Source: a virus
Strand: one strand, 5' to 3'
IMG/VR virus record: IMGVR_UViG_3300042887_005324
Span: 62,001-126,000 of that record
DNA: 64,000 bases
Position numbers and translations under genes: made by a program. Positions 30,499-62,009 of the stretch are shown here, piece by piece. The notes beneath the pieces are model-generated. The model saw only the letters and a program-made list of their open reading frames with translations, was not told the DNA's origin and did no database searches. How positions within the stretch are numbered: position 1 is the stretch's first letter; each line of letters opens with the position of its first letter.

Positions 30499-31248
30499 TT
30501 ATTTTAATTTAAATTTTAATTTTAATTCTTTTATTAAATGTGGATGAGCCCATTTTTCATCTAAAATATCAACTTCTACGACCTGTTTGTTGGGTATTAG
30601 GTTGTGTTTCAATTGATAATGATCACCTATAGATGTTGGATCAGATGGTTTATTAACTCTAAAAATACTTCCATCTTCAAGTTGAATAAATAAGGTTCCT
30701 TTTTTATACTTAAATTTGTTGCCATTATTATATTCTATTTCAACATCTTCTTTAACTTTCCAGCCTTTTACTTCATATTTTTTGGAATCAGGGTTATTAT
30801 CACTAAATAATTTATCAAGTTTGAAACTTCTATATTCCATTTGATTCATTACATATAATGGTTTTATTCTCCACTCACAAACACTATTCTTAGACAAGTG
30901 ACATTTAAGAGCCGCCTCATTTGCTTGATGTATTGAATGATATATTTTGTGATTCCAATATGTAGTCCATCCATACCATTCACCTTTATTGTCTTTCCAT
31001 CTTACTTCTAAAGTATATCCATAAGGATTTATATCATCAGCGACAGCTTGACATTTAAAATGAATTGATTCTTCTATTGCCCAATTTTTACCATTAACTG
31101 TGTAATAGTGTTTTGGAGTTACTAATTTTTCTGTGGATGTTCCGGTGATCTCTTTGAAAGAGTTGAGATCTGTGTTTGAATGTGTTTGATAACCTGAGTT
31201 GATATCTTGTCTGGTTAAATTGACAAGTTGAGAATTTTGTGAATTAAT
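30499..31248 (-). CDS. Unknown protein whose frame opens ATG-ATG-TAG
   Basis: An open, clearly protein-like frame of about 249 residues, of no family I know. It has aromatic-rich sequence (YGYTLEVRWKDNKGEWYGW, then YWNHKIYHSIHQANEAALKC) and a lysine-rich C-terminus. A TTG at 30897 is the first standard start codon, but the coding-like sequence continues about 350 bases further upstream. There it meets ATT, then TAG, then two in-frame ATGs (31252-31257), with the AT-rich element 18 bases further on. So the natural start appears to be ATG ATG TAG ATT. Options: readthrough of the TAG by a suppressor (see 31294-31374), an ATT start, or a recent inactivating mutation. The left boundary given assumes translation from ATT. 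Confidence 0.6.
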   Translation of the reverse strand: MNSQNSQLVNLTRQDINSGYQTHSNTDLNSFKEITGTSTEKLVTPKHYYTVNGKNWAIEESIHFKCQAVADDINPYGYTLEVRWKDNKGEWYGWTTYWNHKIYHSIHQANEAALKCHLSKNSVCEWRIKPLYVMNQMEYRSFKLDKLFSDNNPDSKKYEVKGWKVKEDVEIEYNNGNKFKYKKGTLFIQLEDGSIFRVNKPSDPTSIGDHYQLKHNLIPNKQVVEVDILDEKWAHPHLIKELKLKFKLK

Positions 31249-31275
31249 CTACATCATATTTTTTATTTTTATTTT

Positions 31276-31288
31276 TATATATTATAAA
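31276..31288 (-). promoter_or_regulatory. AT-rich element upstream of the TAG-interrupted start
   Basis: TTATAATATATAA, 18 bases before the ATG at 31257. It marks that ATG, and not the internal TTG at 30897, as the intended start region. Confidence 0.5.
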
Positions 31289-31293
31289 ATTTG

Positions 31294-31374
31294 TGCTTCC
31301 AGGAGGGCACGATCCCCTTTCCTCTGAGGTTAGAATTCAGATTATCCCCACGGATAATTTAAGGATCTGAAAGC
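31294..31374 (-). tRNA. tRNA-like cloverleaf with CTA in the anticodon position
   Basis: An 81-nt RNA folds as a cloverleaf by hand: acceptor GCTTTCA/TGGAAGC (one G-U pair) with A as discriminator; a long D-region with a 7-bp hairpin ATTATCC/GGATAAT; anticodon stem TCTGA/TCAGA with the loop ATTCTAACC, whose centre reads T-CTA-A; GGAA variable loop; T stem AGGGG/CCTCC with the loop ATCGTGC. CTA would read the UAG stop codon. Departures from a normal tRNA are the long D-region, a 9-nt anticodon loop unless the A-C pair is counted, and T-loop bases A54/T58 where T54/A58 are expected. It lies seven bases downstream of the CAT tRNA on the same strand, so they are probably one transcript. It may also be another structured RNA. 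Confidence 0.4.
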
Positions 31375-31381
31375 AATTTTG

Positions 31382-31454
31382 TGCGCCCTACTGGGATCGA
31401 ACCAGTGACCCGCTGATTATGAGTCAGCCGCTCTAACCTCTGAGCTAAAAGCGC
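31382..31454 (-). tRNA. tRNA with CAT anticodon (elongator Met or Ile2)
   Basis: A canonical 73-nt tRNA: acceptor GCGCTTT/AGGGCGC with two G-T pairs, D-arm AGCTCAGAGGTTAGAGC, anticodon stem GCTGA/TCAGC with loop CTCATAA, T-arm ACTGG-TTCGATC-CCAGT, discriminator A, no encoded CCA. CAT can be elongator Met, or Ile2 if the C is modified to lysidine. Ile2 would suit an AT-rich phage because it reads AUA. The D-arm looks more like tRNA-Ile2, the anticodon region fits either. Confidence 0.93.
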
Positions 31455-31482: not shown

Positions 31483-31490
31483 CAAATATA
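31483..31490 (-). promoter_or_regulatory. Promoter of the tRNA pair, -7 box TATATTTG
   Basis: An exact Bacteroidota -7 box with TTG 19 bases upstream, 28 bases before the first tRNA base. This is the best-formed promoter in the window. Confidence 0.8.
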
Positions 31491-38245: not shown

Positions 38246-38260
38246 AGTTGTAAAAGTTTG

Positions 38261-38331
38261 AGGTCGGGGATAGATTCTCACTACCGTAAAAGACTTTGCT
38301 GGTCTCTGCCTAAATGCTCAGCCACCCGACC
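38261..38331 (-). tRNA. tRNA-Cys(GCA), divergent
   Basis: A 71-nt tRNA: acceptor GGTCGGG/CCCGACC fully paired, short D-arm, anticodon stem GAGAC/GTCTT with loop CAGCAAA (anticodon GCA), TTAC variable loop, T stem GGTAG/CTATC, discriminator T (U73 is a tRNA-Cys identity element). Oddities: A33 where U33 is nearly universal, and T-loop TGAGAAT instead of TTCGAAT. Could be functional but unusual, or decaying. No encoded CCA. Confidence 0.75.
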
Positions 38332-40521: not shown

Positions 40522-40522
40522 G

Positions 40523-40802
40523 TGATTCCGGATGGATTCGAACCATCGACCCACAGCTTAGACATACCACTATAGCTTTCGCTACCTAATGTTTGTGGTC
40601 TGGACTATATCATCACCTTCAACCTAGTTGTTCAGGTGCTTCCCCCTTAGTCTCTACACACTCCCTCATTTCTGAGGTTTGGCTCGGTATTACCATCAAC
40701 ATTACTTGGAAGGTTTCACCGAATTCGAGAAGTTCTATCTAACTATTTCTAATTAAACGCCCCCTTTGAGGCTGTTGCTCTATCCAACTGAGCTACGGAA
40801 CC
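40523..40802 (-). tRNA. tRNA-Arg(UCU) interrupted by a group I intron
   Basis: Exon 1 (40769-40802, 34 nt) ends ACAGCCT; exon 2 (40523-40562, 40 nt) begins TCTAAGCTGT. Joined, they give a 74-nt tRNA with acceptor GGTTCCG/CGGAATC, D-arm AGCTCAGTTGGATAGAGC, anticodon stem ACAGC/GCTGT, loop CTTCTAA (anticodon UCU), T-arm GATGG-TTCGAAT-CCATC, and discriminator A. It closely resembles the E. coli argU tRNA-Arg(UCU). The intron lies between U33 and U34. Reads AGA, the main Arg codon of this AT-rich phage. Confidence 0.93.
40563..40768 (-). ncRNA. Group I intron (IC3-like, 206 nt)
   Basis: Core motifs read in order on the minus strand: AATTCGGTGAAACCT; ACCGAGCCAAA (at 40678-40688); GTAGAGACTA (40648-40657); GATATAGTCC (40602-40611); and a GCGAAAGC P9 tetraloop. 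These match the Azoarcus tRNA-Ile intron nearly in order and in length. P1 can form: exon GCCU plus intron C pair with GGGGC of the internal guide, with a U-G wobble at the 5' splice site. The intron ends in G before UCU. No ORF is inside; it should be self-splicing. Confidence 0.92.
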
Positions 40803-61987: not shown

Positions 61988-62009
61988 TAAAATTCATTAA
62001 GATTTAACT

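Follow-up and report, generated by a model that had tools for sequence, protein, structure and literature searches.

A reduced copy of a phage peptidyl-tRNA hydrolase/HD-domain module whose expression probably depends on amber suppression

A locus on the minus strand of a 64,000-nucleotide stretch of viral DNA (positions 62,001 to 126,000 of IMG/VR record IMGVR_UViG_3300042887_005324; hereafter, the window) probably derives, in reduced form, from a phage module that makes the expression of translation-rescue genes dependent on suppression of an amber (UAG) codon. In the window, a tRNA-like RNA with a CUA anticodon lies upstream of a long open frame headed by ATG ATG TAG. In related phages, the same kind of amber head opens genes for a Pth2-type peptidyl-tRNA hydrolase (PTH2) and an HD-domain protein (HD). 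The whole case is comparative. The source record, 174 kb long, represents part of a huge phage, whose best named relatives are metagenomic phages of 634-642 kb.

An early in-frame amber codon is a trait of the PTH2/HD family. A search with the HD protein returned 51 IMG/VR loci, which were read with TAG marked; most have an in-frame TAG soon after the ATG, in many codon contexts, and separate PTH2 genes are built alike. A systematic scan asked which in-frame stop lies nearest upstream: at 58/66 PTH2 and 51/60 HD loci it is TAG, preceded by an in-frame start at a distance of at most 12 codons. Among PTH2 genes without an ATG after the upstream stop, that stop is TAG in 53 of 54, the exception (L062) being a truncated PTH2. 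Some of these IMG/VR loci are interdependent, and some come from fragmentary records; at 70% identity, the amber genes form 23 PTH2 and 19 HD clusters. The probability of 23 independent TAGs at the local TAG rate of ~8% is ~1e-25, a rough yardstick given that the clusters were selected as amber-bearing. The position of the TAG differs between lineages (codon 2-12; nearly always 1-11 codons past the ATG), as do the flanking codons, while the TAG itself is kept.

The trait extends across domain arrangements and hosts. The amber codon also heads fused PTH2-HD or HD-PTH2 proteins; the latter order occurs in XacN1 and RAS14, with TAG at codon 3. When one gene of the pair has no amber codon, its partner usually does, the amber being in PTH2 in ME3, Arash, L076, and L105 and in HD rather than PTH2 in L086, L089, L091, and L092. 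GAP32, CBB, XbC2, and SNUABM_19 have a further TAG at HD codon 47, and the gene has been deposited as two coding sequences (CDSs). In mycobacteriophages, the annotated “peptidyl tRNA hydrolase” opens ATG TAG GTG or GTG TAG GTG. GTDB contigs L177 and L179 read MT-TAG-VR with a CUA tRNA directly downstream, L181 combines ML-TAG in PTH2 with a mid-gene TAG in HD, and L180 has a TAG between PTH2 and HD. Long extra frames, possibly homing endonucleases, separate PTH2 from the CUA tRNA/amber start region at L070 1669-2660 and L058 883-2000, and the frame inserted in L070 opens with an amber head of its own, MKNM#IK.

Outside this family, TAG behaves as a stop. It terminates 62/785 open reading frames (ORFs) in the metagenomic phage LR745206 and 11/157 selected ORFs in the window's record, and is therefore a working stop in the window's genome, in line with the initial annotation, which had noted six other genes ending in TAG and judged genome-wide recoding unlikely. 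Use of genetic code 15 (TAG = Gln) throughout, with PTH2/HD as just one recoded gene, would suit the fact that related huge phages (Lak) are recoded (PMC6784885). It is extremely improbable here: the code is refuted for these genomes at gene ends because TAG still terminates ORFs, and early or internal TAG is not prominent in other genes of LR745206 and the window's record.

The features of the window locus are as follows.

31483..31490, minus strand: putative Bacteroidota-type -7 element (TATATTTG) preceding the two tRNA genes (direct reading).
31381..31454, minus strand: tRNA with a CAU anticodon, called tRNA-Met (ARAGORN; Rfam RF00005, 66.5 bits).
31293..31374 (82 nt), minus strand: divergent CUA-anticodon tRNA and putative amber suppressor (fold and six-sequence alignment).
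31331..31333, minus strand: CTA anticodon in the 7-nt loop TTCTAAC (direct reading; CTA invariant in the six aligned sequences).
31252..31257, minus strand: ATG ATG, in-frame start codons before the amber codon (direct reading).
31249..31251, minus strand: in-frame amber TAG, +4 base A (direct reading; kept in PTH2/HD relatives).
31186..31248, minus strand: remnant of a PTH2 N-terminus (INSQNSQLVNLTRQDINSGYQ; tblastn to L003 4992-5096).
30499..31136, minus strand: gene-2 domain fused to the PTH2 remnant, stop codon included (67% identity to L003 5369-6040).

Direct reading bears out the arrangement first reported for this locus: ATG ATG TAG (31257-31249) is in frame with 249 open codons (31248-30502, stop codon at 30499), which contain no ATG, GTG, or TTG before the TTG at 30897 and no ATG before codon 133. 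The CTA cloverleaf likewise lies upstream on the same strand, behind a clean tRNA that proves to be tRNA-Met(CAT). Within the 174-kb record, a long frame with an early ATG-x-TAG and then no nearby standard start is unique to this locus; the arrangement was found again in dozens of unrelated phages. Elements similar to TATATTTG precede the CUA tRNA in L058, L061, and LR745206, and a sigma-70 scan gave a result not above chance.

The origin of the frame is indicated by its closest relative, the 44.9-kb contig L003, in which the gene order is PTH2-like, gene 2, and HD-domain gene. Its PTH2-like gene opens ATG AAG TAG ATT and its HD gene ATG ATG TAG ATT. LR745206 has the same order, with PTH2 opening ATG AAC AAT TAG ATT and HD opening ATG AAT ACT TAG ATT. 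Both genomes contain a full-length PTH2 with a match to the PTH2 Pfam family, while a search of the 174-kb record found no complete PTH2, only ~21 PTH2 residues. Because L003 and LR745206 keep PTH2 and gene 2 as separate neighbours, the window frame is best explained as those ~21 residues, amber codon included, fused by deletion to gene 2. Gene 2 has no Pfam or PHROG assignment; its relative in L003 (5369-6040) starts with its own ATG, and another relative lies in LR745206. Thus, the claim that the amber codon belongs to this gene stands in part: the early TAG is real, but it comes from the PTH2 N-terminus, and the relatives of the main domain have an ATG and no TAG. For the gene-2 domain, intact relatives of this kind, which the initial annotation had said would count against its proposal, are formally what L003 and LR745206 provide. 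The window has a TAG within ~12 codons of an ATG and a CUA tRNA in the same genome, and no PTH2 or HD catalytic domain follows its amber codon; the locus is a reduced derivative of the amber-gated PTH2/HD module, not a full member.

A cloverleaf fold is predicted for the window RNA (87 nt folded, -26.7 kcal/mol); its 7-nt anticodon loop has U33 and is centred on CTA, and 7/7 acceptor and 4/5 anticodon pairs form. The RNA belongs to a divergent class that also includes RNAs of L058, L061 (= the L003 contig), L059, LR745206 (507340-507421), and LR756502. The class is characterized by (i) a 7-bp acceptor stem, (ii) a 9-11-nt linker and a 5-6-bp hairpin replacing the D-arm, (iii) an anticodon stem of 5 bp, usually with a mismatch as its last pair, and the loop YTCTAAM, and (iv) a T-arm with a conserved G-U. 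Across the six sequences, arms pair with their own partners at 42/42 acceptor, 30/31 D-like, and 25/30 anticodon positions. Exchanging arms among the sequences lowers these values to 121/210, 77/150, and 75/150, respectively. Manual assignment of the stems biases the comparison somewhat towards own-arm pairing. The identification as a tRNA rests decisively on this comparison because five relatives share the layout and the pairing. On the basis of the alignment, the window RNA can be regarded as a divergent CUA-anticodon tRNA whose stems are kept by compensatory changes, and the proposal that it reads UAG gains support from its membership in this covarying class. Similarity scores of single members are low: the window RNA reaches 18.8 bits unfiltered, and 13 bits in a 219-kb scan, with a covariance model of CTA tRNAs, and its L003 relative reaches 17.6 bits with RF00005. 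A relaxed Rfam search with the window RNA returned chance matches only.

Other tRNA-like sequences occur on the minus strand of the window. A tRNA-Cys at 38260-38331 is called by ARAGORN only, and weak matches to the CTA model lie at 40522-40591 and 40729-40802 (23.0 and 18.7 bits); all may be decayed tRNA genes. A repeated DNA motif, ATGNNGTAGATT, was set aside, its genome-wide count not being enriched over a reversed-pattern control.

In the wider family, amber heads and CUA tRNAs occur together. A CUA tRNA is present in 46/50 IMG/VR records with the module. At 33 IMG/VR loci, a well-formed CUA tRNA called by ARAGORN lies no more than a few kb away (relaxed thresholds gave thousands of spurious calls, which were ignored), a covariance model built from 30 of the ARAGORN-called CUA tRNAs adds seven loci with divergent ones, and record-wide searches add L060, L066, L074, L093, L105, and L087. 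Among other amber-bearing PTH2/HD phages, named and metagenomic, 17/17 of those checked have a CUA tRNA: XacN1, RAS14, pT24, GAP32, XbC2, CBB, SNUABM_19, ME3, Arash, HyRo, Breeniome, ScoobyDoobyDoo, LR745206, LR756500, LR756501, LR756502, and LR756504, the candidate in the last having been read by eye. The initial annotation had asked whether relatives that keep the TAG also keep the cloverleaf; where it does not adjoin the amber gene (LR745206 and LR756502), it is present elsewhere in the genome. Conversely, no CUA tRNA was found in the whole genomes of RaK2 and Hallingskeid, whose PTH2 genes have no amber head: that of RaK2 has an ATG after the stop, and that of Hallingskeid is part of a longer ordinary ORF. 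Together, the family-wide early TAG and its co-occurrence with CUA tRNAs favour the proposal that the window RNA permits expression of the gene. In a recoded Lak phage (Lak-B7, L119 1841-1913), a tRNA with a UUA anticodon adjoins a PTH2 gene that has no TAG head.

Several features suggest that readthrough, likely by decoding of the UAG, yields the protein. The base at +4 of the amber TAG is A in 69, G in 21, C in 7, and T in none of 97 genes, while terminal TAGs are followed by T in 24/73 cases (Fisher test against the amber set, p = 1e-10; cluster representatives, 0/42, p = 5e-6). U at +4 is the strong-termination context in bacteria (PMC5289835). Downstream of the TAG, the ratio of nonsynonymous to synonymous polymorphism (pN/pS) is 0.24 for PTH2 and 0.38 for HD, i.e., coding-type evolution, and in an AlphaFold2 model of HD (pLDDT 96.9), helix 1 comprises residues 3-12, directly after the TAG.

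The following observations weigh against amber suppression as the general explanation. L089, L091, L092, and L099 have an amber HD gene and no CUA tRNA in the sequence examined, and the counts of 46/50 and 17/17 are raw, uncorrected for the background rate of CUA tRNAs in size-matched phages. HD genes lack an amber codon in GTDB contigs L176 and L178, and L062 and some single genes start ordinarily despite the presence of a CUA tRNA. A blind prediction from the annotated suppressor tRNA of Stenotrophomonas phage Summit failed, as no PTH2/HD gene was found there, so the pairing of tRNA and target is not universal. The HD stretch from the TAG to a conserved Met has a pN/pS of 0.51, and HD genes have an ATG 6-13 codons past the TAG. 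In the window itself, ARAGORN and RF00005 both miss the RNA. It has a 10-nt linker and a 6-bp hairpin where a D-arm is expected, and its T-loop is ATCGTGC, compared with TTCGAAT, TTCGACC, or TTCGACT in the five relatives; the initial annotation was thus right that the RNA departs from the tRNA consensus. These departures and the missed calls could mean that the window copy is decaying, a doubt that stems mainly from the T-loop, which is not TTCGAAT-like.

Of the readings that build on these points, one makes ATG-x-TAG a minimal leader ORF, akin to the lambda bar minigenes, with the protein started by reinitiation at a non-AUG codon or the next AUG. The TAG at codon 2-12 is minigene-like, the Met 6-13 codons past it makes reinitiation possible for HD genes, and a separate short amber ORF with a hairpin precedes PTH2 in LR745206, L060, and LR756502. 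This explanation is nevertheless unlikely, since 53 PTH2 genes have no ATG between the TAG and the domain core, the stretch from TAG to core is under coding constraint and supplies helix 1 in the HD model, TAGs also occur mid-gene in L181 and the GAP32 group, and amber heads use TAG rather than TAA or TGA, a choice that a leader stop would not need. AUU had been considered as a start codon, as TAG is followed by ATT in the window and the first relatives, and was rejected on finding AAC, GTT, CTT, ACC, and GGC in other lineages. The codon after the TAG varies (GTA and ACA also occur), so that no single alternative start codon can be the general explanation.

The short conserved ORFs upstream of PTH2 (L042 18007-18150, which is LR745206 338007-338150; L060 from 1826; and L115 from 2361) carry an early in-frame TAG of their own (MM#INTYYNFVVVPP*, MM#ILTYNNLERPP*, and MN#IKTYKNLVVKPP*) and end in CCTCCTTAA; pairing between this sequence and a GGAG element further downstream gives a long hairpin. 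Such an ORF resembles a leader peptide or attenuator that depends on the amber codon being read.

Alternatively, the UAG could sense release factor 1 (RF1), being read by near-cognate tRNAs when RF1 is limiting, with the CUA tRNAs coincidental or auxiliary; the logic would resemble that of prfB autoregulation. UAG is the sole stop read by RF1 alone, the +4 base, which is never U, makes for weak termination, and no CUA tRNA was detected for four amber-bearing loci. RF1 sensing is nevertheless highly unlikely, since amber heads and CUA tRNAs co-occur tightly, phages whose PTH2 lacks an amber head also lack such a tRNA, and many loci have the tRNA next to the gene.

For the window alone, a further possibility, which we regard as doubtful although far from negligible, is that the locus is a decaying remnant, i.e., a truncated PTH2, a pseudo-tRNA, and a silent fused gene. 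The deleted PTH2 body, the deviating T-loop, and the lack of any HD gene seen in the 174-kb record would all fit. On the other hand, the fusion has been kept in frame and the gene-2 part is intact across the 249 codons at 67% identity to L003; moreover, all acceptor and D-like pairs of the RNA are formed, and its anticodon and T-stem closing mismatches are usual for the class.

Under the favoured model of amber suppression, the phage CUA tRNA would be made and charged by a host synthetase and would read the UAG a few codons past the start codon. Without the tRNA, RF1 would stop the ribosome after 1-11 codons; in its presence, translation would continue into the Pth2-type hydrolase and/or the HD-domain protein, the latter a presumed relative of the HD domain of a tRNA A-adding enzyme. 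The tRNA and the amber gene would thereby act together as a coherent feed-forward gate, which in the window would now control the next gene, joined in frame to the PTH2 N-terminus, because the PTH2 body has been deleted. The gate might ensure that rescue or tRNA-end-processing enzymes are made (i) not before the phage tRNA set is in place or (ii) when UAG suppression creates stalled, peptidyl-tRNA-loaded ribosomes. Timing, leak prevention, and feedback on suppression may be alternative purposes; of the feed-forward or timing switch originally suggested, the feed-forward gate fits the comparative data, but timing is one of several purposes. A homeostatic circuit is a tentative and rather improbable elaboration, in which the suppressor tRNA would switch on PTH2 and HD to act on the peptidyl-tRNAs and tRNA ends that suppression produces, and in which, in some phages, an amber leader peptide with a CCTCC/GGAGG hairpin would serve as an attenuator that also senses the level of suppression.

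The functional assignments underlying this model differ in depth. The PTH2 protein matches the Pth2 family PF01981 and structure 2zv3 (E = 6e-8). For HD, the sole sequence link is to the HD region of Aquifex poly A polymerase 3wfp (E = 4e-4), and a Foldseek search of the HD model against the PDB gave no significant match, the best being the HD-fold protein PhnZ (E = 0.26). PHROG 14850 unites PTH2 and HD as one protein. The theme of the module is ribosome rescue and tRNA handling. L065, L067, L077, L095, L103, L104, and L106 each have a transfer-messenger RNA (tmRNA) gene no more than a few kb from the amber module, and several tmRNA-bearing loci also hold tRNA-Thr sets with three or four anticodons. 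Small proteins of rescue-factor size with an RF-1 domain (PF00472) occur in LR756502, LR745206, and mycobacteriophage HyRo (L219, L220, and L221), that of HyRo with a GGQ motif.

These results name a candidate target family for phage CUA suppressor tRNAs under the standard code, in dozens of phages including laboratory mycobacteriophages. The XacN1 paper described two CUA suppressor tRNAs whose target genes could not be identified (PMC5852040), and the Summit paper a suppressor tRNA with no target identified (PMC9022506). ORF364 of XacN1, with TAG at codon 3, is a candidate target of that phage's CUA tRNAs. The trait also accounts for broken annotations, such as one gene split into two CDSs in the GAP32 group and a truncated Pth2 in Arash. 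Pth2-type hydrolases of the same family (PF01981) have been reported in jumbo phages (PMC7824862) and mycobacteriophage tRNA arrays (PMC5966550), and the accessible parts of both papers mention neither the amber codon nor a link to CUA tRNAs.

Parallels to known systems are partial. Autoregulation of prfB (RF2) also involves an in-frame stop codon, UGA, near the start of a translation-factor gene, but it uses a +1 frameshift, whereas the phage genes keep one frame across the TAG and come with a cognate suppressor tRNA. Pyrrolysine decoding pairs a dedicated CUA tRNA with gene-specific UAG codons. ARAGORN labels the phage CUA tRNAs “Pyl”, although their shape is mostly canonical; no pyl genes were seen in the annotated neighbourhoods, where no systematic search was aimed at them. 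Lak and some crAss-like code-15 phages also encode CUA suppressor tRNAs and read in-frame TAG as sense (PMC6784885, PMC9523058). In those phages many genes are recoded; in the present module a single gene or gene pair is affected, the TAG is nearly always N-terminal, and it is still a stop elsewhere in the genomes examined. A further parallel is an engineered suppressor-tRNA feed-forward loop, a leak dampener in which the controlled gene carries a nonsense codon and the suppressor tRNA is co-regulated (PMC7969014). No description of a natural suppressor-tRNA gate was found in the openly accessible literature. The leak dampener is synthetic; the module considered here, which suggests a natural counterpart to it, is conserved in phages of Bacteroidota, Pseudomonadota, and Actinomycetota.
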